This document shows, in pieces, positions 1 through 60,913 of a stretch of DNA of 64,000 nt. Made by a program: the position numbers and the translations under genes. The first letter of the stretch is position 1. Each line of letters begins with the position of its first letter. The stretch is taken from positions 2,232,001 to 2,296,000 of the forward strand of contig NZ_JAFBCP010000001.1 of NCBI RefSeq assembly GCF_016907735.1, written 5' to 3'. The DNA comes from Brevibacterium paucivorans (GTDB lineage: Bacteria > Actinomycetota > Actinomycetes > Actinomycetales > Brevibacteriaceae). Under the pieces are notes generated by a model, which was given only the letters and a program-made list of their open reading frames with translations, had not been told where the DNA came from and ran no database searches.

Positions 1-916
1 TGGTGGCGAATACGGCCAGCCGGGAGCGTCGGGGTTCGGTGGCTTCTCGGACCTGTTCGACGCATTCTTTGGCGGTGGGGCCGGTGCCCAGCCAGGGCCG
101 GCGTCGCGCAAACGCCCAGGTCGCGATGCGCTGGTGGGCGTGTCGATCGACTTGAAGACCGCAGTGTTCGGTGGAACGGAAGACGTTTCGGTAGTGACCG
201 CCAAACTGTGCGACACGTGCCACGGAGACGGAACCCGCCCCGGGACTTCGCCACAGACCTGTTCGCTGTGTAACGGACAAGGTTCCGTGCAGCGGATGAC
301 CCGCACGCTCATGGGGCAGATGGTCACCAACCAGCCATGTAACAACTGTGGTGGTTACGGAACCATCATCGCCGACCCATGCCAGTCATGTAACGGCGAC
401 GGTCGCGTGCGTGCCGAAGAGACCTTGTCGGTCAAGATCCCAGCCGGTGTGAAGGACGGAACCCGCATTCTGCTGTCCGGTCGCGGTGAAGTAGGACCCG
501 GTGGGGGTCCCGCTGGCGACCTGCACCTCGAAGTGGCCATCCGCGAACACCCCGTCTTTACCCGCGACGGCGACGACCTGCGTGCCACGGTCACGATTCC
601 GATGACCGCAGCAGCCCTGGGAACCACCATTAGTCTTGAGACGTTTGACGGTGAACGCGAACTTGAAATCGCGCCGGGAACGCAGGTGGGAACCACCGAG
701 ACCCTGGCTGGTTTGGGCGTGGGGCGGCTGCGTCGCTCGTCCCGCGGTGACCTGCTGGTGACCATCAACGTTGAAGTGCCGTCCAAGCTCGATGCGAAAC
801 AGCGCGAACTTCTGGAACAGCTCGCCACCATGCGCGGTGAAACCAACCCGGACGTCAAACTGGGCAACACCCACCGCGGACCGTTCAGTCGTCTACGCGA
901 CCGGTTTAACCTGTGA
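1..916 (+). CDS. dnaJ: Chaperone DnaJ, 3' part (5' end outside window)
   Basis: Hsp40 co-chaperone that delivers unfolded clients to DnaK and stimulates its ATPase in the cytoplasm. The reading frame is already open at base 2, where it encodes the end of the Gly/Phe-rich linker. The J domain therefore lies upstream of the window. The zinc-finger domain follows with four CxxCxGxG repeats (CDTCHGDG, CSLCNGQG, CNNCGGYG, CQSCNGDG), then the C-terminal client-binding and dimerisation region. The stop codon overlaps the GTG start of rsmE by 4 bp (GTGA), so the two are translationally coupled. The neighbourhood (dnaJ, rsmE, phoH, ybeY, CNNM, era) is the standard actinobacterial dnaJ2 order, where hrcA is normally just upstream. 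Identification is secure; only the missing N-terminus is unseen. Confidence 0.95.
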   Translation, partial: GGEYGQPGASGFGGFSDLFDAFFGGGAGAQPGPASRKRPGRDALVGVSIDLKTAVFGGTEDVSVVTAKLCDTCHGDGTRPGTSPQTCSLCNGQGSVQRMTRTLMGQMVTNQPCNNCGGYGTIIADPCQSCNGDGRVRAEETLSVKIPAGVKDGTRILLSGRGEVGPGGGPAGDLHLEVAIREHPVFTRDGDDLRATVTIPMTAAALGTTISLETFDGERELEIAPGTQVGTTETLAGLGVGRLRRSSRGDLLVTINVEVPSKLDAKQRELLEQLATMRGETNPDVKLGNTHRGPFSRLRDRFNL

Positions 917-43780: not shown

Positions 43781-43845
43781 AGTTTCCCTTTCACGGTAAA
43801 AACGGTTGGCGCGCCCAGAGTTGTTATCGCGGTGGTGCCAACGGT

Positions 43846-43951
43846 GGCAGGGCTTGCGGTTCGCAAAACGGTGCGCGCCGAAAAGGTTCTGAGAAAACGT
43901 ACTATTCGATTCTGAACCGATTCTGGTAGCCGTCTGCGCCGAACCTGTGGG
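43846..43951 (+). repeat. Direct repeat copy A (~106 bp)
   Basis: About 80 percent identical by eye to copy B at 44275-44379, with one single-base indel. Shared blocks include GGCAGGG, GCGCGCCGAAAA, CTATTCG-type, and the invariant CTGGTAGCCGTCTGCGCCGA. A small gene follows 22 bp downstream on the same strand. Confidence 0.8.
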
Positions 43952-43973
43952 AGGGTAAGCACCCAGAACAATC

Positions 43974-44235: not shown

Positions 44236-44274
44236 GCCCAGAAAAACTAGGCACACGCCGCACCTGTTTCGACT

Positions 44275-44379
44275 GGCAGGGTTTGAAGTTCGCAAGATGA
44301 TGCGCGCCGAAAAATCCAGAGAAAATTTATTATTCGAATCTGAATCGAGTCTGGTAGCCGTCTGCGCCGATCTTGTGGG
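44275..44379 (+). repeat. Direct repeat copy B (~105 bp)
   Basis: Second copy of the element at 43846-43951, same orientation. In this copy an uninterrupted frame reads through the whole repeat (MMRAEKSRENLLFESES then LVAVCADLV) and ends at TGA 44398. The corresponding frame in copy A is conserved but broken by the indel. It lies about 100 bp before the next small gene. Confidence 0.8.
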
Positions 44380-44480
44380 GTTGAAGGTGAGTGCGTGAGT
44401 GGGGTGTGATTGCCGGGAGAAAAACTGTGTCAGTGCCTCCGTCTACGTTGTAAATAACTACCAGAAACGGAGGAATAGCG

Positions 44481-44999
44481 ATGAGTTACACAATCATTGA
44501 CAGCACGGATACAGAACTCCCGGTCAAGCGTAACGGCGAGCCTTATCTGCACGCTATCGACATGACGGGGGAAACAATGCTCGCTGACACGCTGGGCGAG
44601 TGCATTGGATTCTTTATTCAGAATTACGACAAAATAGCTTTCACAGATGAGGGAGACGACGAGGCTCTTTTTGCGCGGGCAGATGCAGCGGTCCACTATG
44701 CGAATGTTACGCAGCAGGCGTTCATCGAACACGTAAGTATACCAGATGGCCTCACCGAAAGTGAACGTTTGGCTATCGTGTCAGATCGGTCTGTGCCGGT
44801 AGAGGTAGCAGGCAGCTGGGATCACGACATTCCACTTGTTCTTGTATCAACAGACTACGCGCCATATACCAACCTAGAGGCTCCCACCGGGGACGTCATG
44901 TTCATCAACCCACACACTGAGCTTAGTTTGCTTATATCCGGCTCAGAAATAGGACTGTGGAAATTCTATACACGCGCAAAGGGCTTAACTAGGTCCTAA
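44481..44999 (+). CDS. Hypothetical acidic protein, 172 residues
   Basis: I do not recognise it. It is acidic and soluble, with no signal peptide or membrane helix. ATG 44481 has a strong GGAGGAA site. The second half contains DIPLVLVSTDYAPYTNLEAP and NPHTELSLLISGSEIGLW, a beta-rich pattern. It follows repeat copy B as the frameshifted gene follows copy A, which raises the idea of an orphan immunity protein (inference only). Confidence 0.6.
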   Translation: MSYTIIDSTDTELPVKRNGEPYLHAIDMTGETMLADTLGECIGFFIQNYDKIAFTDEGDDEALFARADAAVHYANVTQQAFIEHVSIPDGLTESERLAIVSDRSVPVEVAGSWDHDIPLVLVSTDYAPYTNLEAPTGDVMFINPHTELSLLISGSEIGLWKFYTRAKGLTRS

Positions 45000-45102
45000 T
45001 CATCGGAGGTCCTCAATCGAATTCGCACTTTAACGGGCGGACGAGTCGCGCCTTTACTACTAGAAACGAATAGTATGTTCTCAGGTTCTAAATGGAGCAC
45101 AA

Positions 45103-46578
45103 ATGTTTAAAATCCCAACTCTCTATGACCTTATTGACGTGACTTCGTCTGCTACGCAGGCCGAGATTAAAAAGGCTTGTCGACGAGCTCTCCGGGAGAC
45201 TCATCCAGACATGAACGGTGGCCGTGCGTCCACTCGATACATTGCCGTACAAGACGCATCTGAAGTGCTTTTGGACCCGTCTCGTCGCGCTTTGTATGAC
45301 CAATCACTGGGCTTGGATGGGGCGTCACCCCAAGAGTCTCCTGTCAATACACAACCGTCAACGGCGTCTGAAGGCGATGCGAATGTGAATAGCCAAACGA
45401 CATCGTCAACTCATGGTACCAACCCTGCAGGACAACCGGAATCTACAGCGCAAGATGCTCCCGGGGAACAAGATGCGCCAGGCGAGAACCCGTCATATTC
45501 TGAGTATTCGGGCCGTCGGACTGCACGAATGGCCGGGGGACGCAACGGGGATTTCGCATTCCTTTCAACGCCCGTAATTCCCAATTTCTCAGTCCCGTCA
45601 AACATGCCACCCATGCGCCCCTCGCCATCGTACGGCAGGTTTCATGCGTTTCACTGGTTGTCGATTCTTTTGTTTATCGGTTCCTATTTAGCCGAAATGT
45701 ATTTTCTTGTGTTTCATGGATTGGACTTTGATGGCGGTGGAAGTCCATTCTTGACGCTTTTCCTGATGCTGCTGTGGTGGCTTCGCGGGCTGGTGTCTTT
45801 GGTCGGCTTGTTAAGCGTGTTTTCCGCGCGCGTTCGGTTCTTTGGGTGGGTATTTCCGGTCTTGCTTTTCCTGCTTTCGCGTCATCCGAACTTAGTGGAT
45901 GGAGAACTCTGGTTCATCATCGCGATCGCATTGGCATGGATTGCCTTTGTAATTACAAGTGCTGCGCCCAACCGGTTACGGTCTGGTGCGTACATCATTC
46001 CTGTAGATTTTATTGCGAACGGTAATACGTTTGGGCGTCCGGGCGATGGCTTAAAAGACAGTGACTTTAGCGAAGCGAATATTCAAGCGGGGATTGCTGG
46101 AGAGAGGGCGACAGCCGAAGCCTTGTCATTCTTGCTCGACGCGCCTGGCGTGTATGTATTCCATGGCCTTCAGTTTTCAATGAGTTCAAACGCCGATGTC
46201 GACCATGCAGTTGTTTATGGAAACCGAGTTGCGCTCATTGATTCGAAACTCTGGCCGTCGGATCTGTACGAATGGGCCGACAACCAAACTATTCGTCAAG
46301 GTGACGGAACGCTTCGCACTATTCACATGGAAAAGGCGCAGCAGAACTATGAGGAGTATGTCGGCTACGCGGGTGCGACAGTTCGCTCGTGGGTATGCAT
46401 CCACCCGGTCAAAGGTAGAGAGAGTTTCGTCTATGACAATTCGTATTGTCCTTCAGGTATCCGCATGGCGGACGCAAATTCTACAGTGAACGAGATTGCA
46501 GAGTTCCTTTTCGACCAGAAAAATGTCTACACCAACCGTAAGTTGCTCAATATTCTCGCGGTTCTCAAGAAAGCTTAG
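45103..46578 (+). CDS. J-domain / transmembrane / NERD nuclease-related protein
   Basis: 491-residue protein with three parts. Residues 1-70 are a J domain with the HPD motif at 34-36 (RETHPDMNGG), so it should recruit an Hsp70. Residues 75-170 are a Ser/Gln/Glu-rich linker. Residues ~182-300 have four hydrophobic helices. Residues ~328-450 are a NERD domain: AGERATAEALSFLL, then NADVDHAVVYGNRVALIDSKLW (D...DSK near residue 379, a PD-(D/E)xK-like core). It is followed after 35 bp by the nuclease-helicase gene, on the same strand and with similar A+T-richer codon use, so they probably form an operon. Function unknown; a defence role is inferred. Confidence 0.8.
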   Translation: MFKIPTLYDLIDVTSSATQAEIKKACRRALRETHPDMNGGRASTRYIAVQDASEVLLDPSRRALYDQSLGLDGASPQESPVNTQPSTASEGDANVNSQTTSSTHGTNPAGQPESTAQDAPGEQDAPGENPSYSEYSGRRTARMAGGRNGDFAFLSTPVIPNFSVPSNMPPMRPSPSYGRFHAFHWLSILLFIGSYLAEMYFLVFHGLDFDGGGSPFLTLFLMLLWWLRGLVSLVGLLSVFSARVRFFGWVFPVLLFLLSRHPNLVDGELWFIIAIALAWIAFVITSAAPNRLRSGAYIIPVDFIANGNTFGRPGDGLKDSDFSEANIQAGIAGERATAEALSFLLDAPGVYVFHGLQFSMSSNADVDHAVVYGNRVALIDSKLWPSDLYEWADNQTIRQGDGTLRTIHMEKAQQNYEEYVGYAGATVRSWVCIHPVKGRESFVYDNSYCPSGIRMADANSTVNEIAEFLFDQKNVYTNRKLLNILAVLKKA

Positions 46579-46613
46579 AATTAATCATGTGGCCGGGTGA
46601 AAGGCGAAAACTA

Positions 46614-49600
46614 ATGACCACACAATATAGCGCTACACAAATCGCGCGAGCATATGACTGTGACTATGCATTTGTCATGAGTAACACTCCTGGCATTACA
46701 GCTCCTGAGCAAGTTGTGGACTCAACTGCAGAACGGGCCGCCGAGTTGGGCCGAGCGTATGAAACAGAACTTCTGCAGGCTTTTCAATCAGGTGGCGCCT
46801 TATTGGAGGGAATCGGTGTCGGAGTTAAACCGTACAACGTTGTTGACCTGACTGAACGCGATGACGAGCATAACGGTGGAAACATAAACGGTGTGGAACT
46901 CGCAGACCTTTTGGACAGTGAAGCAGAAGTTCTGTATCAGTTGCCCCTGAAAAGCGGGCGTTATAGAGGGACGCTTGATTTCCTTGTACGGACTGGCGAC
47001 GGGTGGACAATTTTTGACGCGAAGTTAGCGCGTGAAGGCTCTGCTCAAGCGGCACTTCAGCTCGCCGTCTACTGGCGCATGTTGACAGATCTGTTTGAGT
47101 CCGTACCGGCATCAGTCCGTCCACGGCTTTGCGATTATGCTTTCGTGCTCACTGGGAACGGACGCAGTGCGGAAGTCAATGTTGCTGAGGTCTCGTTCTT
47201 ACTGGATTCTCGACTTGAGCATCTGGATAGTCTTCTGGCATTACAACCGAAAGATGCAATCGAATTCTGGAAGGCGTTTGAAGTTGCAGCTTGTGAGACG
47301 TGTGAGTGGTGCCAGCAAGCTATCGACGCAACCAATGACATTAAGTTGATTGCGCGAATTCGACCAGAACAACGCAAGGTACTTCGTGACAACAAGATCT
47401 TAAGTGTGCATGATTTTGTTGAGGGTGATGTGAAGTCCTTGTCGAAACTTGGCGTTTCAAACCTTGAAGTGTTGCACCGTCAAGCGCGGTTACAGGCCGG
47501 ACAGATGGCTCGCGACATCGAAAACAGCAGCCACACGACGTCCAAGGCGGCTGAGCCACCGGTAGACGTGGAATGGGAAGTGTTTGACACTGACCCAATC
47601 GCTCGAATTCCACTTGCAACGCCCCATGATATCTATTTTGACTTTGAGGGCGATCCGCTCTTCTTGAGAGACGGAGGAAGGGAAGACTGGGGACTTGAGT
47701 ATCTGTGGGGTGAGTTCCATCCCGGTGCCAAAACCTCGGGTTCTGAACTCCCAGGTAGAAGTATTGACGTGTGGCGTAAGGGCCATCCACAGGTTGAACA
47801 TCGTGAAGTGAACAGCCTTTCGACATCCTTCGGAGGTAGTTTTCATGCAGGCTGGTCTCATGATGAAACACAAGAGCTTGAACGTTTTGTTGAGTTCATT
47901 AGTCGCTTGCTGAAGCTCAGAGATGCTCACCCAGAGTTTCACGTTTATCACTACCATGCGTATGAAATTTCGGCACTTCGACGAATCGCAGAACGGAATG
48001 GAATCTTTGTACAAGAAGTAGAGGATCTAATTTCAAGTGGCGTTTTTGTCGACCTTTTGCCGGTAGTGCGCAACAGTGTGGCGGTCTCACAGTCGTCATA
48101 CTCGATTAAGAAACTCGAACCTGCTTACATGGGCGCGATAGCTCGCCTCGAAGCTCTTGACAACGCTGGTGACTCTATCGCCATGTATGCTCAAGCAGCG
48201 CTGAAGTTAAAGGAAAATGGCTTTTCAACGCATCAAGATGAGGGTATAAGCGCTGAGCTGAAAAACGAGTTTGAAACACTTGAGCTGTATAACGAATACG
48301 ACGTTGTTTCGACGATGCTTTTGCACCAGTGGCTTATTTCAGTTGCTCGTGACGCGGATCCGGAGTTGCAGCTTTGGGGCCCACTCGACAGCGGTGTGCC
48401 ACCGGAACGTCAACTGCTCGACACGAGTGACATATCCGACTTAGAAAATGAGGAAGATGAAGAGACTGGTCAGAGCGAAAGTAACCCGGGTGCACAAGCC
48501 CTGGCAGAGGCCCGCGCACTCCTGACTCCAATAGTGATCAGCCCGGATGGCGATGAGTATGACAACGGAGAGATTACTGCTGATTTGAAGCTTCTGCTCG
48601 GCCTCACAAACTATTTTATTGCCGAAGACTTACCGGAGCTTTCAGACACGTTGCGTCTCATGACTGAAGATATATCCGAGTGGGAGTCAAATGCCGATTC
48701 GCTAATCCTTGATGACGTTCGCTGTGAACCGCTCGAATATCAGGATGGTGATTTTGTTGCCGCGAGTAATGAAGATGAATCAGCGGACAACGGCGTAACT
48801 AAAGTACCTGTCGAATCACTTGTAAATGACAGTAGCAAAGGTTCGGAGGATTACGACGGTTGGTGTTGGCCACGAAATCGAAAAGCTGAACGGCGCTACT
48901 TGTCTTCAAAAGTAACGTACGCGCCGAAAGATTCGACAATCTTGGATGCCAATCAGAACGAATCAGACTCAGCGGGTACGTACTTTTTGTACTACGAGAC
49001 ACCTGTGCCTGAGCATCTACCAGACGTTTGGGGAGCGGATTTTGCAGCTCGCGTGCGATTGAATAGTGGTGGCGTAGTGGAAAGTCGGCGTTTCAGGCGT
49101 GAAGAAGGAAGTTCAACGCTTGTTTCAGGTGACGGTCGCATCTACTTCTATGAGAATGTTAAAGACTCTAACTGTAAGCTCACATCCGAACAGCTTCCTG
49201 TCGCGGTGCGGCGCGAAGAGTTCATCGATGAAGATCCGATCAAAGAGAAGCTAGCGAACTTTATCCTTGACTCGGTTATAGCTACTCTTGCGAGCGGAAT
49301 TTCTGGTGGCGAAATGGACGGCGAGGAATCTGAGTCCTCAGATTCTCTTATCCCTGGTCTGAGTGTTGGGGATCTTTCTGGCCCACTTTCTCATGAGCAA
49401 ATTCATAAGCTCATGTCAACATTAGACAATGACGTTCGCTGGAACTTGATTCGTAAACGCGTCAAGTGCATTCCTGAAACCGAACACGCTCAGCACGCTG
49501 TCAACATTTTCAATACCTTGAAACGATCAGAACCTGGTACCGTACTGGCAGTTCAGGGGCCACCAGGAACCGGAAAGACTTTCGTGGGTGGCCATGTGAT

Positions 49601-51002
49601 AGCCGCACTTGTGGCTCAGGAGAGCTGGAAGATCGGGGTTCTTTCACAAGGACATGAAACTATCGCTAACTTGTTGGCGTCAGCAAGACGAGTGACACCC
49701 TCGAGTCTTAACTCACTTGGCTTTGGAAGGGATTTCGAATCCAATGAGACTGAAATATGGGGCATCAATCCCGGCGACGAATATGACCCTAATCAGGAAA
49801 ACCCTGTTCTTTATATGACGCAGGTTCTGCAGAAGCCGAAATCTAAAAAGTTTGTCAGCTACACGAAGCTTCGCAAAGCGCTTGGACTTCCCAAATTCGA
49901 TAAGAACGACGCGCAGAAGCTTGCAAACCAGACGTTTGTGCGCCCACCGGTAGATCTCCACCCCGGCTGGCTTTGTTTGTTTGGCGGCTCCTCCAAGTCT
50001 CCAAACCCAATAGAAGTGAATAAGGCGGGGTGGCCCACAAATATAGGAAAGTTGCCTGAGTGCCAGGTGAGCGGGCCGAGTTTTGTTGAAACGAATCAAC
50101 ATCGGGGTGCCGTCTACGGTGCTACGGCCTGGGGAATCGATGCTCTTGGTGACGAGTGGGAATTTGATCTGCTTGTCATCGACGAAGCGGCGCAATACTC
50201 GTTAGCCTTTACCCTGGCGGCCGCCGGTCGTGCTAAACGTATCCTCCTTTTGGGTGACCCGCGACAGCTACCGCAAGTGGTGCAAGGAACACATTGGGGC
50301 GGAGCAGAGTCGTCTGCCCTTGGCTGGTGGGCTAACAACGAAGCCACTCTGCCTGCGGATCGGGGGTACTTTATGGAGCAGACGTGGCGGATGACACGTG
50401 ATCTGACCACGAAGGTGTCAGCGCTCTCGTATCGCAACAAGTTGGTTTCGGCTGACGCTGCCAATGAACGATCTTTGAGTGTATCAGCGCCATGCACTTA
50501 TCCGGTCGAAAGCGGAATCCATGGTGTTCGGCTTAAGCATGAGGGCAACTCAACTAAGTCTCAGGAAGAAGTTGACGAGGTCGTTAAGATCGCGCGCGAG
50601 CTGTTGTCTGGAGGCACTGTTTGGCACACGCCCAACGCAGATCGAGAAGTGACGCAGAGAGATGTTCTGGTGGTAGCTCCTTACAATGCTCAGGTCACTT
50701 CTCTGCGAGCCGCTCTTAAAGCGGTGGATTTGGCTGAAGTCCGGGTCGGAACAGTTGACAAGTTCCAGGGGCAGGAGGCGCCAATCGTGATTGTTTCGAT
50801 GACATGTTCGAGCGCTACTGACTCTCCCCGTGGCGCGGATTTTGTGATGAACCGCAATCGTTTGAATGTAGCTGTGTCTCGCGCGCAGTGGGCTGCCTAT
50901 GTGGTCTACTCGGAACACCTGGTTGAGGTGACCCCCACAAGCATTGCTGCGTCAGAGCAGCTGGGCGGTTTCATGCGAATGGTGTCTGCCGTTGAGGAGT
51001 GA
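46614..51002 (+). CDS. RecB-like nuclease / RNase H-like / SF1 helicase fusion (TM0106-type)
   Basis: 1462-residue multidomain enzyme. The N-terminus is a RecB-type nuclease: SATQIARAYDCDYAFVM, D near residue 122 (GTLDFLV), DAK near 135 and QLAVY near 152, then a cysteine cluster CETCEWC near 225. An HhH-like stretch follows. An RNase H-like exonuclease segment begins DIYFDFEGDP near 338. The C-terminal SF1 (Dna2/Upf1-like) helicase has GPPGTGKT near 981, DEAAQ near 1188, GDPRQLPQ near 1213, and VGTVDKFQGQEA then NRLNVAVSRAQ near 1412. I start at ATG 46614, 8 nt after GAAAGG; ATG 46587 lacks a site. The Glu/Asp-rich middle (about 600-780) is unusual. It likely processes DNA ends or structures. 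Confidence 0.85.
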   Translation: MTTQYSATQIARAYDCDYAFVMSNTPGITAPEQVVDSTAERAAELGRAYETELLQAFQSGGALLEGIGVGVKPYNVVDLTERDDEHNGGNINGVELADLLDSEAEVLYQLPLKSGRYRGTLDFLVRTGDGWTIFDAKLAREGSAQAALQLAVYWRMLTDLFESVPASVRPRLCDYAFVLTGNGRSAEVNVAEVSFLLDSRLEHLDSLLALQPKDAIEFWKAFEVAACETCEWCQQAIDATNDIKLIARIRPEQRKVLRDNKILSVHDFVEGDVKSLSKLGVSNLEVLHRQARLQAGQMARDIENSSHTTSKAAEPPVDVEWEVFDTDPIARIPLATPHDIYFDFEGDPLFLRDGGREDWGLEYLWGEFHPGAKTSGSELPGRSIDVWRKGHPQVEHREVNSLSTSFGGSFHAGWSHDETQELERFVEFISRLLKLRDAHPEFHVYHYHAYEISALRRIAERNGIFVQEVEDLISSGVFVDLLPVVRNSVAVSQSSYSIKKLEPAYMGAIARLEALDNAGDSIAMYAQAALKLKENGFSTHQDEGISAELKNEFETLELYNEYDVVSTMLLHQWLISVARDADPELQLWGPLDSGVPPERQLLDTSDISDLENEEDEETGQSESNPGAQALAEARALLTPIVISPDGDEYDNGEITADLKLLLGLTNYFIAEDLPELSDTLRLMTEDISEWESNADSLILDDVRCEPLEYQDGDFVAASNEDESADNGVTKVPVESLVNDSSKGSEDYDGWCWPRNRKAERRYLSSKVTYAPKDSTILDANQNESDSAGTYFLYYETPVPEHLPDVWGADFAARVRLNSGGVVESRRFRREEGSSTLVSGDGRIYFYENVKDSNCKLTSEQLPVAVRREEFIDEDPIKEKLANFILDSVIATLASGISGGEMDGEESESSDSLIPGLSVGDLSGPLSHEQIHKLMSTLDNDVRWNLIRKRVKCIPETEHAQHAVNIFNTLKRSEPGTVLAVQGPPGTGKTFVGGHVIAALVAQESWKIGVLSQGHETIANLLASARRVTPSSLNSLGFGRDFESNETEIWGINPGDEYDPNQENPVLYMTQVLQKPKSKKFVSYTKLRKALGLPKFDKNDAQKLANQTFVRPPVDLHPGWLCLFGGSSKSPNPIEVNKAGWPTNIGKLPECQVSGPSFVETNQHRGAVYGATAWGIDALGDEWEFDLLVIDEAAQYSLAFTLAAAGRAKRILLLGDPRQLPQVVQGTHWGGAESSALGWWANNEATLPADRGYFMEQTWRMTRDLTTKVSALSYRNKLVSADAANERSLSVSAPCTYPVESGIHGVRLKHEGNSTKSQEEVDEVVKIARELLSGGTVWHTPNADREVTQRDVLVVAPYNAQVTSLRAALKAVDLAEVRVGTVDKFQGQEAPIVIVSMTCSSATDSPRGADFVMNRNRLNVAVSRAQWAAYVVYSEHLVEVTPTSIAASEQLGGFMRMVSAVEE

Positions 51003-51556
51003 TGCGGTGTTCCACCGAGTGGGACTGTGTACTTCGTCAGTGAGGCAAGTTTTGGCGCGGCACCCCCTCGTTTGAGAGTGCGAGCTGTTGTGGAATTCGT
51101 CCTGGAGAATTGACGGTTTTGCTGAGGAAAAGCGTATCGCTAAACCATCGTTCATCTGGTGTCGCAGTTAGAACACCATCTAGCAAGAGCGATTTCTGAG
51201 GCATACACTTCTGCCGCGTGAACGGTTAACCGTGAACATTGTTGCCGGAGTTCATTCGTAGGTGCACTCCCTAGTTGTTCTGCTTTGCGCAATTTTGTAG
51301 GGAGAAGTCGTAACTAAAACGCATCTAAAAGGCCACTACATCGATCTAATGAATATGGCGGAGGTTCCTACGGAACAGATTTAGGAACCGATTTACAAAA
51401 TGGTGACTACTTAAGAGAACATATTGTTTTTATGAGTTGTGAGTGAATTTATGTAACCGCCGTCAAAACGCAGAAGTTTGTGTATATCATCATATTCGTA
51501 AGTTCTGATGCGTGTACATCGGTAGCGTTGATCACTAGACGAAGGTGAGGTAGGCG
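51003..51556. other. Gene-poor interval, 554 bp
   Basis: A+T-rich DNA between the helicase and the GIY-YIG gene. I see no convincing ORF, RNA or terminator. The last ~100 bp before GTG 51557 presumably hold the promoter of the next gene. Confidence 0.5.
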
Positions 51557-52468
51557 GTGGCTTCGCAGAAAACAGCGCACTTGTTTCTGATAGACGGCAC
51601 TCCCAACGGGCGGATTAAGTGTTCGCTGTCGAACTGGATAGGGAAAGTCTACCTGATTCCGCGTACCGAGATTGAACGTTCAAAGAACCGTGTACACCTC
51701 AATCAAACTGGTGTCTACCTGCTGTTCGGTACTGAGGCTGACACTGGTGAGCAATTCCTGTACGTGGGACAGGCAAAGGAACGTCAAAACGGCAAAGGTG
51801 TTCTTGGCCGTGTAGTTGAGCATATTGGAGACGAACATCTCGATTACTTCACTCATGTCGTTTGCATCATAGACTCCGAGAACTCGTTTGGGCCGACAGA
51901 TGTCTCTTATCTCGAGAACGCGTTCCATCAGCTTGCGATGGTTGCTGGCCGTGTGAAGTTGAAGAACAAGAGCATTCCATCGCCAGCGAACGTTACAGAA
52001 GAGCAGCGAGCTGCGCTCGATGATTTTATACTGAACGCAAAGATTCTTATTGGAACCCTTGGCTATCGAGTGTTTGATGCTGTCGACGATGTTAAGCAGC
52101 CTGAACTGTCGCAGTCGACCGGCCCTGTTGATGAAGCTGAGCCGACGTTGTACTTAAACGCTGCGGAAGCGAACGGGACAGGTAGACAATCTACTGATGG
52201 ATTTGTCCTGTTTGCAGGGTCGAAATTGCGTGCGGAAATGACAGGGTCCGTTCCTGCGGCCGCACGTGAGAATCGATTTCGGTATAGCAACCGGGTTAAC
52301 AGCGCTGGAGAGTTACAACGCGACACGTTATTTGGCTCACCGTCTGCAGCGGCCTCTTTTCTTCTCGGAACTTCGGTGAATGGGCGAGTAGTTTGGAAGA
52401 ATGATTCTGGCCAGACTTTGCGCGAGATTGAGGAGTCAGAGGCGAAAGCAGTGGCTGAAACGTTCTGA
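51557..52468 (+). CDS. GIY-YIG nuclease with C-terminal DUF4357 domain
   Basis: 303-residue protein. The GIY-YIG core at about residues 50-140 shows GVYLLFG ... FLYVGQAKE (the GIY and YIG strands), then GVLGRVVEHI with the catalytic Arg region, and a Glu in YLENAFHQL. The C-terminal DUF4357 segment is marked by FGSPSAAASFLLGTSVNGRVVWKND. Proteins of this architecture are frequent near restriction-modification systems, though their role is not established. The GTG start has a modest GAGG site. It stands alone between two gene-poor gaps. Confidence 0.85.
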   Translation: MASQKTAHLFLIDGTPNGRIKCSLSNWIGKVYLIPRTEIERSKNRVHLNQTGVYLLFGTEADTGEQFLYVGQAKERQNGKGVLGRVVEHIGDEHLDYFTHVVCIIDSENSFGPTDVSYLENAFHQLAMVAGRVKLKNKSIPSPANVTEEQRAALDDFILNAKILIGTLGYRVFDAVDDVKQPELSQSTGPVDEAEPTLYLNAAEANGTGRQSTDGFVLFAGSKLRAEMTGSVPAAARENRFRYSNRVNSAGELQRDTLFGSPSAAASFLLGTSVNGRVVWKNDSGQTLREIEESEAKAVAETF

Positions 52469-53290
52469 AAGTTGTTCTTGGTCGCCTACACTGTAGTTGG
52501 CAACGAGTCGCAAATGGCTCATTGGAAGATTGCGTAGATGAGTTCAAAGATCTGTCCAATAACGCTTGTGGCATCATTTGGTTGGCGCTTGTACGTCGAG
52601 CTTGGCAGGGCTCGTGTGTGGTAGCAGTTGAGTAGCCCTTCAGATTGAGTAAACCTATACTTCCTCGCGTATTGCGGTGGTTGGGGTGACGTTGGCTTCC
52701 TGCTCGTTCATTTATGCGCGATACCTATGTCAATGAGTAAATGGGTTATTTGGTGGCCATTCGCAATTCAGCTTTTTAACGACTTTTTAATAGGAAGACG
52801 GATGAACGCCGTTCGTATGTTCGTCTCACGGCCAGTCCGCCACTAGCTCCGGTAGCACTTAGACACGGCCTTCGTAATCGCTTAACGCGCCCTTTCGTCT
52901 GTTCTATCGCGATCAAGGGTGCCAATACTCGATTTCAGCGATGCTAAAGTACCTCAAGCTTGCTCGATGGCTCGTTCACTTTCGCGATTGTTTCTTGCGC
53001 ACGACCTTTCTTTAGGCCTACCTGTCAAAGAAGCGAGCTTGTTCGCGCGAATGGAACAACGTGAAAGAAGTTGCCTCTGTAGAGGAGTACTCAAGACCGC
53101 AAGGTATGCATAGCAACAGTGTTTTGTCTGTTCCTAAGTGTGGCTAGAGACAAAAACCGTGCCCAAGTTAGTCCGCGCGACCGAATTGTGGCGTTGCGCC
53201 TCCGGAGCCACGTTGGCGCGGACTACTCGTGTGAAGCTACGGCGCTTCGAAGACGCGAAGTTTTGCAACTGGGATGTGTAGGATGTGATT
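52469..53290. other. Gene-poor interval upstream of the methylase, ~820 bp
   Basis: Short open frames occur (52919-53113 and 53119-53358 on the + strand), but they lack ribosome-binding sites and protein-like composition. I looked for a helix-turn-helix control protein, common in type II systems, and found none. The right edge holds two GGATG pentamers at 53272-53276 and 53281-53285, next to the methylase start. Confidence 0.5.
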
Positions 53291-55252
53291 ATGCGATATA
53301 TAGGGGCAAAAAATGGCATGCTTACTCACATTGCAGAGTTGTTAGAGCGGCATGTTGATGGTGATGAGCAGACATTTCTTGATCTTTTTGCTGGCACCAA
53401 CGCTGTAGGGGCGTATTTCAAGCCACGGTACACCATGTTGTCGAATGATCTACTCTACTTTAGCTATATCAATGCGGTGGCCCGCATAGGCCTCAACCAT
53501 GTGCCAACCTTTCGAGGTTTGGCACAACGAGGAATCGACACGCCTTTGAAGTTTTTGGAACAAGAAGCCGAATCGTACCTCGGACGAAACGTAGAGGGAT
53601 ACTACGAGTTGAGTTACAGTCCAACCGGAGGTTCAATGTACTTGACTTCTAGTAACGCAAAGCGTGTCGACTCAATCCGTTCAACAATCGCAATGTGGCA
53701 CCACAATGGTTGGACTACAAATGAAGAGAATGCTTACCTTGTAGACGCGCTAATTAACGCAGTTCCATCTGTAAGCAACACCACCGGCACGTACGGTGCT
53801 TTCCTAAAACACTGGGATAAGCGTGCCTTAAATACACTACGCCTAACCCCGAGCGCCATTTACAATAATCAGTATGAAAATAAATGCTTTCAGCAGGACG
53901 CGAATGAGCTTGTAAAAGAGATCGAAGCAGACATTGTCTATATCGATCCTCCGTACAATTCGCGACAGTATGTTGCAAACTATCACGTTCTTGAAAATAT
54001 CGCGCGTAATAGTGAACCAGAATTGCGTGGTGTAACGCGTCTTTTCGATTGGGCTGACGAACGAAGTTCTTATTGTTCAAAACGTAGCGTTAAAGACGCT
54101 ATGGGGGACCTTATTGCCAGCGTTCAAGCGCGACACATGGTCATTAGCTACAACTCTGAAGGCCTCCTCAATGAGGAAGATCTGGTTCATCTCGCACGCA
54201 GTTGTTCACTTGATAATCAGATCGAAGTAGTTCGTGTTCCGTACAGAAGATACTCCTCAAGAAGATCGTCATCTTCGCGCTCAGTCTATGAGCTACTTCT
54301 CTATGCGCGAAAAAGCCAGCCGCCATCAAAGTCAGTGACAACCACAGGGCTCACTGAAAAAGTGTTTCCTCTTATTAAAAGTCCACTTAATTATATCGGT
54401 GGAAAGTATCGCCTTCTTCCACAAATCATGCCTTTGCTGCCACAGTCTTCACACACCTTCGTCGATCTATTCAGTGGTGGTGCAAATGTTGGCATCAATG
54501 CGAGTGCCGAGAAGCACATGTTTATCGACATGAATGAGCGTATTAACGAGTTATTTAGATATTTTCAGAAGACTCCTATTGAACAAGTTATCTCTTCGAT
54601 TCATGAGACTATTGATGAGTGGGGCTTATCCAAGACTAATGAGGAGGCGTTTCTAAGATTTCGAAAACACTACAATAAGTGTCCTGACCCTATTTCGCTC
54701 TATGTGCTAACTTCATATAGCTATAATTATCAGTTTCGATTCAATTCAAATATGGAGTTTAATAATCCATTCGGCAGAAATAGAAGCTCATTCTCACGCA
54801 GCATGGAACGCAATCTGGTGCGTTTTGTTAAACGTCTCAGTTGTATCGACGCATGTTTCATAGACAGTTATTTTGAGGACCTGGACCTTAGTTTTCTCCA
54901 GCAGGATGACTTCGTTTATCTAGATCCGCCTTATCTAATTACAACTGGTAGCTACAACGATGGCAACAGAGGATTTCGCAATTGGAATGAAACGTCTGAG
55001 CTATCGTTGCTTGATCGGATGCGTCAACTTACACAGCGTGGCGTACCGTTTGCCTTGAGTAACGTTTTAGAGCATAAAGGGAGGTCCAATGAACTTCTTA
55101 AGGAGTTCATTTCGGAAGAACGACTCCATGTTTTCAACCTGCAATACAACTACGATAATGCATCTCACAACAGCAAGTCGCGAGGCAGCCGCGAGGTTCT
55201 GGTTACAAACTACAGGCTAGATAGAGATGGGCGTGCCGCGGTTGATGTTTAG
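53291..55252 (+). CDS. Two-domain adenine-N6 DNA methyltransferase, M.FokI-like
   Basis: 653-residue fusion of two D12-class (Dam-like) methyltransferases. Domain 1 has the SAM motif FLDLFAGTNAVG (residues 29-40) and DPPYNSRQY (219-227). Domain 2 has NYIGGKYRLLPQI, FVDLFSGGANVG (390-401) and DPPY (545-548). M.FokI has this same layout, one domain for each strand of the asymmetric GGATG site. The start is ATG 53291, with AGGA 7 nt upstream; the in-frame GTG at 53285 is too close to that site. It converges with the restriction gene, their stop codons overlapping in TTAG. Codon use is A+T-rich, unlike the core genes. Confidence 0.9.
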   Translation: MRYIGAKNGMLTHIAELLERHVDGDEQTFLDLFAGTNAVGAYFKPRYTMLSNDLLYFSYINAVARIGLNHVPTFRGLAQRGIDTPLKFLEQEAESYLGRNVEGYYELSYSPTGGSMYLTSSNAKRVDSIRSTIAMWHHNGWTTNEENAYLVDALINAVPSVSNTTGTYGAFLKHWDKRALNTLRLTPSAIYNNQYENKCFQQDANELVKEIEADIVYIDPPYNSRQYVANYHVLENIARNSEPELRGVTRLFDWADERSSYCSKRSVKDAMGDLIASVQARHMVISYNSEGLLNEEDLVHLARSCSLDNQIEVVRVPYRRYSSRRSSSSRSVYELLLYARKSQPPSKSVTTTGLTEKVFPLIKSPLNYIGGKYRLLPQIMPLLPQSSHTFVDLFSGGANVGINASAEKHMFIDMNERINELFRYFQKTPIEQVISSIHETIDEWGLSKTNEEAFLRFRKHYNKCPDPISLYVLTSYSYNYQFRFNSNMEFNNPFGRNRSSFSRSMERNLVRFVKRLSCIDACFIDSYFEDLDLSFLQQDDFVYLDPPYLITTGSYNDGNRGFRNWNETSELSLLDRMRQLTQRGVPFALSNVLEHKGRSNELLKEFISEERLHVFNLQYNYDNASHNSKSRGSREVLVTNYRLDRDGRAAVDV

Positions 55253-57027
55253 AAAGTTGCAATCTGATTTCGCTTGAGTGAATCGAACAGCTCTTCTGAT
55301 GTGAGTTCACCCCGGCATACCTTGTCCACTCCGATTAAGAGCTGGTCAACTGCCACAGCTCCGCCGTTTGCATTTGTTCGATGGTAAGTGGACTTCAGTT
55401 GCTCATCGAAGGCGCCTGTGAAGGTACTTGAAACCCAAAGAAAAGTCGTATTTTTGGGTGAAATTGTTTTGGGAAATGATTCCCACCATTTGGTTGGGTT
55501 GCGCTTTGGGTCGCGAAACTGATTGTCCTCAATGTACCGCACCATCTCGTCTTCCTGGCTTTTTATCTTTGAGTAACCATCAGCATACGCTTTCGTGTCA
55601 ATGATGATTCCTGGACTTTGTCCGTCGGCCTGTTGGTAAACAATGCCATCTGGTCGCAAGGATCCACCAAGAACTCGAGCATTTGTATTAGTTGCTAGTT
55701 TGAACAGTTCCACTGTGAGAATCTCAAAGTCACGAGACCTCTTGGGGTCGAAAGCGATATCGTATAGCTCATAGAACTTTAACGGTAGGGAAGTCCGTTC
55801 CATGATCTTTTCTTTGCGCTTATCGTGAATTGTCCTCTGTCGTTCAGGGGTAACGCCAAGAGGTGGGATATCTAATCCTTTTATTGTGTCCTTCAGAGTT
55901 ACACTGTTGCCGCTAGTGATGACTGAAATGCCGATACCCTGTAGCCCTTCAATGTCAGCGCGGACAACAGTTTCTGAATCGTGGAAGCCAAGCGATTTGA
56001 GGCGAGTCATTAGATTCTTGAACGACTTAGTTGTCGATAGAATTTCAATGATATGTGCGCGACGAGTTCTTACGTAGTCCTTTCTCTGTTTTTCTTCATC
56101 AGTATTGCCATCGATGGCTAAAAATTCCCAGTTTACATACTTGGGAATGCGTCTATTTTTTGAAGAGCCTTTTGATCGGCGTAAAGCGTGCCGTCCTTTT
56201 GCAGTTATCGAAAACTCTCTAAATCCTGCGCACACACCCAAAGAGGTTTGTATTGTGGTGGAGTGAGAAACGACGAACCCGAGTTTCTCAAGCCAGCTTG
56301 CTATTCCTCGCGCGTACTTGTCAGCGGTTCCTTCAATGTCGGACCGGATTTTCGTTTGTTCTTCTTTGGAAGTCGATAACTTGAGCCAATCACGCATTGT
56401 TGCATCTTCGTAAGAGGTAAACCCTCGCTCGCCCTTGAATCCAAGGTTGGAGCCAAGATAGAACTTGTTTACGGGTTTGCGTGACTCGTCTAGAAGCTGA
56501 AGTATTCGTATTGCTGGTGGGTAGGCTAGCAGAGAGTCTATTAGCGTTTGATCCTCTTCTGGTGACTTCTCAGACTGGGCGAATTCGCGCCCTGTTTCTG
56601 TGAGTGAACAAGTGTCGGTGGCCCGATTGTGTGTGACTAGGCCCAGACTGAGCGCCCATCGTAAGTAGCCATCTGAGGTCCAATTGTCTGTCCACTCTTT
56701 CCCTGTGGTTTTATGGTTTTGAGGAAGTATGGTCACTTGGATTAAGCCGTCCGCAACTGCATCACTTCTTCGTTTTGGCGTTTCGTTGTTTTTGTCCTTT
56801 GAGGTGCCAACTAGTTCTTTATATGTGAACGTTTCAGTGCAGTTTAGTAATTTGTCGTGCAATTGGTTTCGTAGATCGATAAAAGGGATCAGGCGGCAAA
56901 CGAGATCGTCACGTAAGGCTTTGTAATGGGCAGTTGAGGAGTCAAAGATTTGAACGACAAGCTTTAAGTTCTCAAAGTTAGACGGGTTCTGCACCCACCC
57001 GTATGTTCTCCGGTGTACTTTGTTCAT
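55249..57027 (-). CDS. Type IIS restriction endonuclease, FokI homologue
   Basis: 592 residues, against about 580 for FokI, and colinear with it from end to end. The N-terminal recognition region starts GWVQNPSNFENLK (FokI GWVQNPGKFENLK). DNA-reading residues I recall from the FokI structure match: Q13, N14, R87, W116, E232, K237 and R240. The cleavage domain begins near 430. D460, D477 and K479 (RPDG ... IIIDTKAY) match FokI D450, D467 and K469 with identical spacing. D493 and R497 match the dimer salt-bridge pair D483/R487. ATG is the complement of 57025-57027, with AAAGGCGGG upstream. It should cut at a distance from its site. Confidence 0.93.
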   Translation of the reverse strand: MNKVHRRTYGWVQNPSNFENLKLVVQIFDSSTAHYKALRDDLVCRLIPFIDLRNQLHDKLLNCTETFTYKELVGTSKDKNNETPKRRSDAVADGLIQVTILPQNHKTTGKEWTDNWTSDGYLRWALSLGLVTHNRATDTCSLTETGREFAQSEKSPEEDQTLIDSLLAYPPAIRILQLLDESRKPVNKFYLGSNLGFKGERGFTSYEDATMRDWLKLSTSKEEQTKIRSDIEGTADKYARGIASWLEKLGFVVSHSTTIQTSLGVCAGFREFSITAKGRHALRRSKGSSKNRRIPKYVNWEFLAIDGNTDEEKQRKDYVRTRRAHIIEILSTTKSFKNLMTRLKSLGFHDSETVVRADIEGLQGIGISVITSGNSVTLKDTIKGLDIPPLGVTPERQRTIHDKRKEKIMERTSLPLKFYELYDIAFDPKRSRDFEILTVELFKLATNTNARVLGGSLRPDGIVYQQADGQSPGIIIDTKAYADGYSKIKSQEDEMVRYIEDNQFRDPKRNPTKWWESFPKTISPKNTTFLWVSSTFTGAFDEQLKSTYHRTNANGGAVAVDQLLIGVDKVCRGELTSEELFDSLKRNQIATF

Positions 57028-57337
57028 TGATTGCCCGCCTTTCTATTTATTCGAAGCCTACTTTAACTAACGATCTGGGTGTTTAAAGGGTAGCAATGTG
57101 TCGTCTTTGCAAGCATTAGGTGCCAGTGTAACTATGCCTAGATGTTCGGTAAGAAAAATATGTTCTATGTAATCGTTCCCTGGGCTGGTAACAGTTCAAC
57201 CTGTTGCGCGTATGTCTTGAACGGTAGTCAGAGCGAATTGCGCACCTGTTGGGTAAATCAAAGACCGGCCCTGGACTCCCGCGAAAACGGGTAGCGGAAC
57301 CGGTCGTGTTGTAAACAATTATAATTGTAAGCCGTAC
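57028..57337. other. Intergenic interval with a structured segment and a palindrome
   Basis: 310 bp between the restriction gene start and the end of the next gene; no ORF. GACCGG (57263-57268) can pair with CCGGTC (57300-57305), enclosing CCCG-CGAAAA-CGGG (57278-57291), a two-part hairpin. A perfect 14-bp palindrome, ACAATTATAATTGT, lies at 57315-57328. The left part must hold the restriction-gene promoter. This is also the right edge of the A+T-rich island. Confidence 0.5.
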
Positions 57338-58120
57338 CTACTGCCTCCACACGCCGGTGGTGCCGGTCAATAACGCTGTACCGTCCACTACAGAACCGGG
57401 TCGCGGAGCAGGTTCAATATCAATCGGAAGTGCCAGGTTGACCATCATGCCGCAGTCGGCAACGACGCGGTACCACTGCTTACCCGTGAGTTGATTGGTC
57501 ACCACCTCAACCTCTTCGCACACCGCTTTAAAGATACTGGCCGAACTCAACTCTTCTAGCTCAGCCGCGCCGGTCGAAAAATGAAACAGCCCCGGGCTGG
57601 CAATGAACGTTGGACCCAACGTAACTTCAGCGGGCATCCCGTCAGCCACATCGGCCAGCGACGAAGCATCAATCGGTGTCTGCTGGGCGCGCCAGTCATC
57701 AACTGACTCAAACACCTCAACATCAACGGCCACGGCACCAAGACAATACGAAGGATACGGTTCAAGCTCACCAACGTCGTTTCCCGCATACACCGGATAC
57801 ATAAACGGATCATCGACCGCCACCAGCACTTTAGTGAACAGAGAACCGTATGGGTCATATACATTCATCGCAGCTAATCCAGGGATCGGCTGCCACGCAT
57901 CAACAGGTACGCGAGCAGGACCTGTTACTGAAACAGAATCTTCGCGTCTGCCGTCCAAGGGCTGGTATAGCGCGAGTGTGGCCCCTGACGGATCTACGTA
58001 GGCGACCATATGGTCGAAGTCGGAGGCGTCCACGCTTAAGAGCATGTCGTTCCTCAGCAATGAAAGGGTGTCATGCCAGTCCGGAAGAAAACCAAGAGAT
58101 TCCAAATATGTCTGTGCCAC
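57338..58120 (-). CDS. Hypothetical acidic protein, 260 residues
   Basis: I do not recognise it. It is soluble and acidic with beta-rich composition, and no signal peptide. A pattern of Asp/Tyr/Pro-rich loops (MNVYDPYGSLFTKVLVAVDDPFMYPVYAG) and a middle segment EVFESVDDWRAQQ are visible. The GTG start at 58120 lacks a clear ribosome-binding site, so the N-terminus is uncertain. G+C is back to the core level. It is divergent from alaS. Confidence 0.65.
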   Translation of the reverse strand: MAQTYLESLGFLPDWHDTLSLLRNDMLLSVDASDFDHMVAYVDPSGATLALYQPLDGRREDSVSVTGPARVPVDAWQPIPGLAAMNVYDPYGSLFTKVLVAVDDPFMYPVYAGNDVGELEPYPSYCLGAVAVDVEVFESVDDWRAQQTPIDASSLADVADGMPAEVTLGPTFIASPGLFHFSTGAAELEELSSASIFKAVCEEVEVVTNQLTGKQWYRVVADCGMMVNLALPIDIEPAPRPGSVVDGTALLTGTTGVWRQ

Positions 58121-58151
58121 ACGTTTATTTTTTCATGCGCACAGACAACCG

Positions 58152-58180: not shown

Positions 58181-58258
58181 CGGTGTGGCCTGTATGCAAC
58201 AACCGTGGAACACGGGAAGCGCAGCGCTCAAGGCACCGCCAATCAGGGAAGGACACTC

Positions 58259-60913
58259 ATGAAGACCGCAGAAATTAAGCGCCGCTGGCTGGAATTCTTC
58301 GAATCCAAAGGCCACACCGTGGTGCCATCTGCGTCCGTGATCTCGTCCGACCCCTCCATCCTCTTCAACATCGCAGGCATGGTGCAGTTCATCCCATACC
58401 TCACCGGCCGCGAACCCGCACCCTTCCCACGCGCCACCAGCGTGCAAAAGTGCGTGCGCACCGCCGACATCGAAGAAGTGGGCCAAACCACCCGCCACGG
58501 CACGTTCTTCCAAATGAACGGAAACTTCAGCTTTGGCGACTACTTCAAGAGCGAAGCCATCGCCATGGCCTGGGAACTGCTCACCACCCCAGAAGACAAC
58601 GGTGGCCTGGGCTTTGACCCCAACCGCCTTTGGGTCACCGTCCACGAAGACGACGCCGCCTCGATCGACCTGTGGCTCGAAGAAACCAGCATGCCCCGCG
58701 AACGTATCCAAATGCGCGGCAACGAAGACAACTTCTGGCACACCGGCCAACCCGGCCCCGGCGGCTACTGCTCCGAAATCTACTACGACCGCGGGCCCGC
58801 ATACGGCAAAGAAGGCGGCCCGGTCGCTGACGAAGACCGCTACATCGAAATCTGGAACCTCGTCTTCATGGAGTTCGAACTCTCCGAGGTCCGCACCAAA
58901 GTCGACTTCGACATCAAAGGCGACCTTCCCGCCAAAAACATCGACACCGGCATGGGCCTGGAACGCGTGGCGTTCCTCAAACAAGGTGTCGAGAACATGT
59001 ACGAAATCGACGAAGTCTACCCCGTCATCAAAAAGGCCGAAGAACTCTCCGGCCACACCTACGGCACCAACCACAACGACGACGTCCGCATGCGCGTTGT
59101 CGCCGACCACGTGCGCTCCGCCCTCGTCATCATCGGCGACGGCGTGCGTCCCGGCAACGAAGGCCGCGGCTACATCCTGCGCCGCCTTCTGCGCCGCGCC
59201 ATCCGCGCCATGCGCCTGCTGGGCGTCACTCAACCCGTGCTCCCACACCTGCTGCCCGTCTCCAAAGACGCCATGAAGCAGTCCTACCCAGAACTCGACA
59301 CCGACTTCGACCGCATTTCCAAGATCGCCTACGCAGAAGAAACCGCGTTCCTGCGCACCCTGGAATCCGGCACCCAGCTGCTCACCCGCACCGTCGCCGA
59401 GGTGGGTAAAGGTGGCACTATCGACGGCGCCGTGGCATTTACCCTCCACGACACCCACGGCTTCCCGATCGACCTCACCGTGGAAATGGCCCACGAAGCA
59501 GGCGTGGAAGTCGACGTCGACGGCTTCAAAGCCCACATGGAAGAACAGCGCCAACGCGCCAAAGCCGACGCGAAGTCCAAGAAGGGCGGGGGAGCGAACC
59601 TCACCGCCTACTCCCACCTACTCGAAGCCGGCACCTCGGAATTCGTGGGCTACGACAACCTCAACACTCTGGCCACCGTGCGCGGCATCATCAAAGACGG
59701 CGAAGCCGTTCCCGTGGCACACGCCGGCGACACGGTCGACGTTGTCCTGGACATCACCCCGTTCTACGCCGAATCCGGTGGCCAAACCGCCGACATCGGC
59801 CACCTCACCGGCCCTGACCTCACCGCTCGTGTCACCGACGTTCAGAACATCCTGGCCGGGCTACCCACGCACAAGGTCACGGTTGAAACCGGTGAGCTGG
59901 AAACCGGCGCCCTCATCACCGCGCAGGTCGATCCAGACCACCGCTACCAAGCCCAGCAGGCACACTCGGCAACCCACCTCATCCACGCCGCCCTGCGTGA
60001 AGTTCTGGGCTCGAACGCCACCCAGGCCGGATCGCTCAACAACCCCGGCTACCTGCGCTTCGACTACTCGTACCCTGAAGCACTCAGCCCAGCAGCCCGC
60101 CAAGAAATCGAAGAATGTGCCAACACCGCAGTCCGCGACAACTTCGAAGTGGGCTACGACTTCCTGCCATTCGAAGAGGCCAAGAAATCCGGCGCCATGG
60201 CCCTGTTCGGTGAACGCTACCCAGAAATCGTGCGCGTGGTTGACATAAACGGCACCTGGTCCCGCGAACTTTGCGGAGGAACCCACGTCACCCGTACCGC
60301 AGAAATCGGACCCATCTCGCTAACCAGCGAAGCCTCCGTGGGCTCCGGCACCCGCCGCATCGAAGCCAGCGTGGGACTTGACGCCATGAAGCAACTGGCA
60401 CGCGAACGCTCCACCGTGGCCCAGCTGTCGGAGCTTCTCAAGGTGCCCGGCCCCGAGGTTTACCAGCGCGTCACCGGCCTCATGGACCGCATCAAAGAAG
60501 CCGAACGCACCATCGCTCAACTCAACCAAGAAAAGGTCCTGGCCCGCGCAACCGACGCAGCCGCCAGCGCCCAGAAACTCGGCCCCGCAACCGTGGTCAC
60601 AACGGAGCTCGGTGAGGTGGCAAACGCCGCCGACGTCCGCTCCTTCGTCCTTGACGTTCGCAACCGCCTGGACGACCCAGCCCACGTCATCGCAGCAGTT
60701 GGACTGGCCAACGACAAACCCGCCGTCGTCATCGCGGTAGGCCCTGACGCACAGCAAGCCGGTCTGAAAGCCGGAGCTCTTGTCACCTCGGCGTGCAAAA
60801 CCCTGGGCGGCGGCGGAGGTGGCAAGCCCGACCTCGCACAGGGTGGTGGCCAGGACGCCACCAAGGTGACCCAAGCACTCCAAAACGTGCGCGACCAGGT
60901 AGCGAACTCGTGA
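58259..60913 (+). CDS. alaS: Alanine--tRNA ligase
   Basis: Class II synthetase with editing activity. The catalytic domain begins KTAEIKRRWLEFFESKGH, with motif 2 near RATSVQKCVRTADIEEVG. The tRNA-recognition region follows. The editing domain has the zinc motif HSATHLIHAALR ... CGGTHVTRT, and the C-terminal oligomerisation (C-Ala) domain ends in GGGGGGKPDLAQGGG. It has 884 residues from ATG 58259, with GGGAAGGA upstream. The stop overlaps ruvX (GTGA). Confidence 0.96.
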   Translation: MKTAEIKRRWLEFFESKGHTVVPSASVISSDPSILFNIAGMVQFIPYLTGREPAPFPRATSVQKCVRTADIEEVGQTTRHGTFFQMNGNFSFGDYFKSEAIAMAWELLTTPEDNGGLGFDPNRLWVTVHEDDAASIDLWLEETSMPRERIQMRGNEDNFWHTGQPGPGGYCSEIYYDRGPAYGKEGGPVADEDRYIEIWNLVFMEFELSEVRTKVDFDIKGDLPAKNIDTGMGLERVAFLKQGVENMYEIDEVYPVIKKAEELSGHTYGTNHNDDVRMRVVADHVRSALVIIGDGVRPGNEGRGYILRRLLRRAIRAMRLLGVTQPVLPHLLPVSKDAMKQSYPELDTDFDRISKIAYAEETAFLRTLESGTQLLTRTVAEVGKGGTIDGAVAFTLHDTHGFPIDLTVEMAHEAGVEVDVDGFKAHMEEQRQRAKADAKSKKGGGANLTAYSHLLEAGTSEFVGYDNLNTLATVRGIIKDGEAVPVAHAGDTVDVVLDITPFYAESGGQTADIGHLTGPDLTARVTDVQNILAGLPTHKVTVETGELETGALITAQVDPDHRYQAQQAHSATHLIHAALREVLGSNATQAGSLNNPGYLRFDYSYPEALSPAARQEIEECANTAVRDNFEVGYDFLPFEEAKKSGAMALFGERYPEIVRVVDINGTWSRELCGGTHVTRTAEIGPISLTSEASVGSGTRRIEASVGLDAMKQLARERSTVAQLSELLKVPGPEVYQRVTGLMDRIKEAERTIAQLNQEKVLARATDAAASAQKLGPATVVTTELGEVANAADVRSFVLDVRNRLDDPAHVIAAVGLANDKPAVVIAVGPDAQQAGLKAGALVTSACKTLGGGGGGKPDLAQGGGQDATKVTQALQNVRDQVANS

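Follow-up and report, generated by a model that had tools for sequence, protein, structure and literature searches.

A FokI-family type IIS restriction-modification pair, most likely acquired by transfer, between rpsD and alaS in Brevibacterium paucivorans

We analyzed 64,000 nucleotides of the Brevibacterium paucivorans chromosome (contig NZ_JAFBCP010000001.1, positions 2,232,001 to 2,296,000), referred to here as the window, and focused on two adjoining genes that resemble those of the restriction endonuclease FokI and its methylase. An earlier note, made from the letters alone, had described them as a complete FokI-type type IIS restriction-modification (R-M) system in an actinobacterial chromosome, and both genes are found among the open reading frames (ORFs) where that note placed them. 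The host genome is a single contig of 2.41 Mb with two WhiB genes, which support its actinobacterial assignment; WhiB occurs among 14 control genomes only in Corynebacterium glutamicum. The pair is laid out as follows:

53291 to 55252, plus strand: two-domain N6-adenine DNA methyltransferase, M.FokI-like; 653 residues from ATG 53291 (Pfam, PADLOC, homologues)
55249 to 57027, minus strand: FokI-type restriction endonuclease; 592 residues; D1, D2 and D3 recognition subdomains plus cleavage domain
55249 to 55252: four-nucleotide overlap between the ends of the convergent methylase and nuclease genes (ORF coordinates)

The convergent arrangement is as first described, with the nuclease running from 57027 down to 55249 toward the methylase on the plus strand. 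Both frames are open over their full length, and all catalytic residues are in place.

The nuclease is homologous to FokI over its whole length, and its Pfam domains follow in the order PF02981 (4.7e-25), PF02980 (1e-29), PF16902 (9.1e-8), and PF09254 (1.5e-45), all exceeding the curated cut-offs. Against the PDB FokI sequence, residues 7-583 of the query align to residues 3-568 of the chain (E 2e-112) at about 39% identity, and these E-values exclude chance resemblance. The claimed colinearity through D1, D2, D3, and the cleavage domain is thus borne out by the Pfam order and the PDB match. The predicted structure, superposed on the FokI structures 1fok/2fok, has the overall FokI fold (VIA-align rows below the FokI chains were left aside). 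A relationship confined to the cleavage domain is ruled out by the D1-D3 Pfam matches, the PDB match, and the structure superposition. The catalytic residues D450/D467/K469 of FokI correspond to D460/D477/K479 in the window and the dimer pair D483/R487 to D493/R497, exactly as had been read from the letters; the FokI numbering follows the PDB chain's own numbers (4..579). All five positions are invariant in a 37-row alignment (37/37). A broader alignment of 58 rows likewise shows no change in the catalytic three, and each dimer residue is kept in 57 of its rows.

The methylase contains two stretches of PF02086 (MethyltransfD12, D12-class adenine methylase; E 3.8e-75) and matches the PADLOC model MTase_II (type II methylase) with 855 bits over residues 3-644. 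Its C-terminal half is similar to DNA adenine methylases of known structure (1yfj, E 3e-40). Numbered from GTG 53285, DPPY motifs lie at positions 221-224 and 547-550, the first accompanied by the S-adenosylmethionine (SAM)-type motif DLFAG and the second by DLFSG, so that each half has one set. The description of a two-domain enzyme with two DPPY and two SAM motifs therefore stands, with both adenine-methylase domains in one chain. M.FokI itself reportedly has two domains, one per strand, in a single chain (so the title of a 1989 paper), and we liken the window methylase to it by description rather than by sequence. It is 49-55% identical to four methylases that adjoin FokI-like nucleases. 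Among the 47 family methylases of at least 600 residues, the window's included, the first and second motifs are DPPY/DPPY in 27 and DTPY/DPPY in 20. The mechanical ORF opens at GTG 53285; because two of the four aligned homologues begin MRYIG/MRFIG, we place the likely start at ATG 53291.

The pair lies in a segment of distinct composition within an interval that is short in most of the congeners compared:

32482 to 33105, plus strand: rpsD, left ancestral neighbor of alaS (tblastn against eight congeners)
44246 to 58137: low-G+C segment of 13.9 kb with the R-M pair and other candidate defense genes (blastn against the sister genome G004, GC)
58205 to 60913, plus strand: alaS, right ancestral neighbor (mechanical ORF; TIGR00344; 97% protein identity in G004)

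The rpsD gene, named from its sequence, is presumed to encode ribosomal protein S4, and the true start of alaS is probably further in than that of the mechanical ORF. The interval was viewed in eight congeners hand-picked from 56, mostly with small genomes, and in seven of them (G045, G009, G044, G002, G003, G018, and G015) alaS lies within about 0.2 kb of rpsD. The eighth is the close sister G004. In the window 25 kb separate the two genes (33106-58258). The left part of this interval matches G004 as far as 43951, at 81-96% identity on the DNA level and with a few small gaps. Past this match G004 carries a BREX set (brxA, brxB, brxC, pglX, pglZ, and brxL). Next comes a match to window positions 43969-44245, which some 0.8 kb of other DNA separates from alaS. 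Within the 44 kb of G004 compared, nothing matches window positions 44246-58137 (blastn ends at 44245 and resumes at 58138), and the whole G004 genome has no relative of the nuclease. Two different defense sets thus entered about 0.3 kb apart. The G+C content of the segment is 0.492, compared with 0.600 and 0.622 on its sides; at third codon positions (GC3) the methylase has 0.44 and the nuclease 0.47, and three genes outside the segment have 0.78-0.84. The rpsD-alaS interval is variable in the genus, and in this species and its sister it collects defense genes.

Within its own lineage the nuclease is rare. The signature of FokI domain 2 occurs in one genome of a 396-genome sample from the order and likewise in one of 396 sampled from the phylum, in both cases the window's own, and a full-length match occurs in 1 of 57 genus genomes, again its own. 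A whole-protein search of 99 genomes, its own included, gave weak matches in two other congeners, to the cleavage part only. The congener G026 has a 593-residue protein (L007) in which Pfam finds the FokI cleavage domain and no D1 or D2, which makes it a distinct nuclease within the genus; G037 (L008) also has a weak match to the nuclease. The absence from the corresponding site of relatives, the foreign composition, and the patchy distribution expected of a horizontally acquired defense island are all seen for this locus.

Outside the genus, FokI homologues are common rather than special. Scanning a genome collection of 84,980 species with a five-row alignment and two short peptide patterns gave 57 loci, a lower bound from which records close to the window's own were possibly omitted. 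They comprise 41 Bacillota, six Bacteroidota, five Poribacteria, two Pseudomonadota (Pasteurellaceae), one Spirochaetota, one Actinomycetota (a Coriobacteriaceae metagenome bin), and one unplaced locus, most of them matched across almost the entire query. A methylase relative is present in 56 of the 57 fetched loci; the exception is L052, in which the nuclease starts 24 bases from the contig end. The Coriobacteriaceae copy (L014), on a binned metagenome contig, is almost identical to a Lapidilactobacillus copy (branches of 0.013 and 0.021) and may be a recent transfer or a binning error, so we do not count it as a firm actinobacterial precedent. Plasmids of lactic-acid bacteria carry FokI homologues as well: a plasmid scan gave 13 records, five of them covering at least 80% of the query, the best from Lactococcus at 53.5%. 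A Staphylococcus haemolyticus plasmid (L006) has a 308-residue FokI-like open frame, with the recognition part only, that adjoins IS257, and eight staphylococcal plasmid records match the same part of the query (7-304). No FokI relative was found in a scan of phage records or in a viral scan with a single sequence. A viral scan with the alignment gave three contigs, which may be host DNA; in the flanks of one (L066), one of five ORFs matched PHROGs, without a virion function.

To place the pair among these relatives, we built a nuclease (R) tree and a methylase (M) tree. The R tree held 56 of 68 loci plus FokI and the window, omitting the window's own record (L001), the truncated plasmid copy L006, the congeners L007 and L008, and eight loci with a first-hit ORF shorter than 500 residues; the M tree held the 46 of 68 loci with a methylase ORF of at least 600 residues, plus the window. 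In the R tree the window falls in an eight-row set (97/92) with Vagococcus, a Lactococcus genome and plasmid, Erysipelotrichaceae, an uncultured Firmicute, and two viral-collection contigs. The M tree places it in a set of 13 rows (SH-aLRT 100), together with the loci of the R-tree set, the Pasteurellaceae pair, and three others. Both trees support the same clade for the window but give it different nearest neighbors. FokI sits in a neighboring clade of the R tree with three Bacillaceae (L016, L017, and L026).

The methylase precedes the nuclease in tandem at 47 of the 63 loci with both genes, and L017 and L026 have this order on one strand; in L016 the methylase is in pieces, 2.3 kb off and on the other strand. 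In ten other loci (L002, L009-L013, L021, and L066-L068), some of them near-identical pairs, the genes converge and are no more than 1.2 kb apart. This convergent layout is a trait of the sub-clade that includes the window, and not of FokI's nearest relatives or of most of the family. The pair's nearest known relatives are convergent systems, mainly of Bacillota.

These data change how the transfer proposed in the earlier note should be framed. That note had taken FokI to come from a Gram-negative bacterium; however, Flavobacterium (now Planomicrobium) okeanokoites is filed in Bacillota (NCBI taxonomy), so the contrast between donor and recipient was misframed and the Gram-negative donor is rejected. 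Transfer into a high-G+C host is retained on the low G+C content of the segment, the absence of the pair from this site in relatives, and the patchy distribution. Acquisition by transfer is well supported and most likely, and the pair would have come with or beside other candidate defense genes into the variable rpsD-alaS interval. Because of the long window branches, the trees do not single out a particular donor.

How the pair would act can be proposed by analogy with FokI. In FokI, the recognition part of one monomer attaches to GGATG, a second monomer is then brought in by contact between the cleavage domains, and cuts fall 9 and 13 bases downstream of GGATG on the two strands (PMC10201449 and PMC4081073). 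With its N-terminal D1-D3 subdomains, the window nuclease would likewise recognize an asymmetric site of 5 bp, most likely 5'-GGATG-3'; it would dimerize via its C-terminal PD-(D/E)xK domain and cut downstream of the site at about 9/13 to leave a four-base 5' overhang. The fused methylase would N6-methylate one adenine per strand (GGATG and CATCC), one half serving each strand, and so protect the host. From this analogy we infer the GGATG specificity, the cut position, and the activity of the pair. Nine residues taken to be DNA contacts of FokI are Q12, N13, R79, Q95, W105, N217, E220, K225, and R228, and seven of them are kept in the window (all except Q95 and N217). K98, which may be a tenth contact, is not kept (N104 in the window). 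In L058 and L059, the nuclease belongs to a distant R-tree clade, the methylase belongs to the window's clade, and the genes are divergent, an apparent partner exchange within the FokI family judging from the trees. Such an exchange would fit one shared site in the family. FokI-like genes of Prevotella intermedia have been assigned to GGATG/CATCC N6-methyladenine (6mA) through REBASE prediction and motif match (PMC5608340). The kept contacts, this methylome, and the apparent exchange support GGATG without proving it.

We consider it highly probable that the B. paucivorans pair is a FokI-family type IIS R-M system, with GGATG its most likely site, acquired between rpsD and alaS. Several observations weigh against this reading. 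Two of the nine contacts are changed, N217 (S229 in the window) and Q95 (L101), both of which also vary family-wide, and N13, kept in the window, is N in 28 of 58 rows and D in 28. Avoidance of GGATG/CATCC is not clear in 400 kb of the genome (observed/expected ratio of 0.92, rank 120 of 512 5-mers); the congener G045, in which no relative was found, gives 0.96 and rank 219, also over 400 kb. In the M tree the nearest sequences by path are the Pasteurellaceae pair, with the window outside the sub-set that holds its R-tree neighbors, and the end branches of the window are long (0.77 in R and 0.99 in M). The four other segment genes measured have GC3 values of 0.50-0.57, above those of the nuclease and methylase, so the segment may not have arrived in one piece. 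Two further points temper our confidence: the site in Prevotella was assigned by REBASE prediction and motif match, and the M tree departs from the R tree in detail.

The identity of about 39% to FokI, the two changed contacts, and the long branches in both trees would fit a system with drifted recognition or reach, a natural variant in a high-G+C host that reads another asymmetric site or reads GGATG and cuts at another distance. We regard this as quite unlikely, since Q12, N13, R79, W105, E220, K225, and R228 are all kept, GGATG/CATCC methylation accompanies FokI-like genes in a distant phylum (PMC5608340), and partners appear to have been exchanged within the family. It is unlikely, too, that the genes are intact and the system silent or inactive, with the nuclease unexpressed and the methylase either acting or silent as well. 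The unclear avoidance of GGATG would be consistent with silence, but both frames are open with every catalytic residue present, and avoidance is not expected where host sites are methylated. It is very unlikely that the pair was inherited vertically within the genus and lost from its other members. The extra DNA of G004 in the same interval suggests that the interval has been open since before the split from the sister, but the single full-length match in the genus, the single domain-2 match in each sample of the order and phylum, the nearest relatives mainly outside the phylum, and the low G+C content of the segment all argue for acquisition.

Other genes of the segment are neighbors of the pair, and membership in the R-M system is not implied for any of the three listed:

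45103 to 46578, plus strand: DnaJ-NERD fusion protein (PF00226, PF08378)
46587 to 51002, plus strand: RecB-like nuclease/superfamily 1 (SF1) helicase, 1471 residues (AAA_11/AAA_12)
51557 to 52468, plus strand: protein with C-terminal DUF4357 (PF14267), of the PADLOC candidate defense family PDC-S14 (PDLC04925, E 5.9e-93)

The first two may form a defense unit. The RecB-like/helicase protein falls just below the TIGR03491 cut-off (96.2 versus 97.45 bits) and has a PADLOC MkoA-type match; among the 57 genus genomes, besides its own, only G049 has matches spanning much of it, in a 1193-residue frame at 32-49% identity in four pieces. A 260-residue protein (57338-58120) has no Pfam match and no relative in the 57 genus genomes besides its own. 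None of seven segment ORFs scanned has an integrase or transposase Pfam match. Near the left edge of the segment only, a direct repeat of about 107 bp (43845-43951 and 44274-44379) is 83-85% identical between copies; the match to G004 ends together with the first copy, at 43951, beyond which G004 has BREX, and the repeat may have had a role in insertion. Among the titles listed by a loose-term literature search, none concerned alaS as a defense hotspot, and the site may still have been reported.

Compared with named systems, the pair belongs to a known kind whose mechanism is already known. It shares with FokI of Planomicrobium okeanokoites the colinear D1, D2, D3, and cleavage domains, the same catalytic and dimer residues, and the same fold, and differs in sequence, in host phylum, and in having convergent genes with a four-nucleotide overlap, unlike the one-strand order of L017 and L026. 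The closest named sequences, from Lactococcus (pUCCL630B), Vagococcus, and Erysipelotrichaceae (L002, L009, L010, and L011), are convergent like the window and 52-53% (R) and 54-55% (M) identical to it (tblastn), but have 62-1144 nt between the genes and Bacillota hosts; the Lactococcus copy (L002) is on a plasmid typed as conjugative, whereas the window copy is chromosomal. Haemophilus quentini and Pasteurella bettyae (L012 and L013) are convergent with the same four-nucleotide overlap, at 48-49% (R) and 53-54% (M) identity; these Pasteurellaceae lie outside the smallest supported R-tree set of the window and are nearest by path in the M tree. By description, Pin25611FI/Pin17FI of P. intermedia have FokI-like genes and a GGATG/CATCC 6mA methylome, with two methylase genes where the window has a single fused one (PMC5608340). 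Csp12AI of Clostridium sp. 12(A) is likewise compared by description: its two separate adenine methylases are described as very similar to M.FokI and were active by cloning and PacBio sequencing, and a FokI-like nuclease gene lies 1.2 Mb off in the genome (PMC4752239).

The host and the defense-gene locus are the mildly unusual aspects of this FokI-type pair. It adds a complete FokI family member to a phylum that has few of them (1 of 396 sampled genomes), and it shows the interval between rpsD and alaS collecting defense genes both in this species and in its sister, FokI-type here and BREX in G004. On the practical side, its cleavage domain is a natural variant of the one built into zinc-finger and TALE nucleases, and the pair predicts a GGATG barrier to the transformation of B. 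paucivorans.

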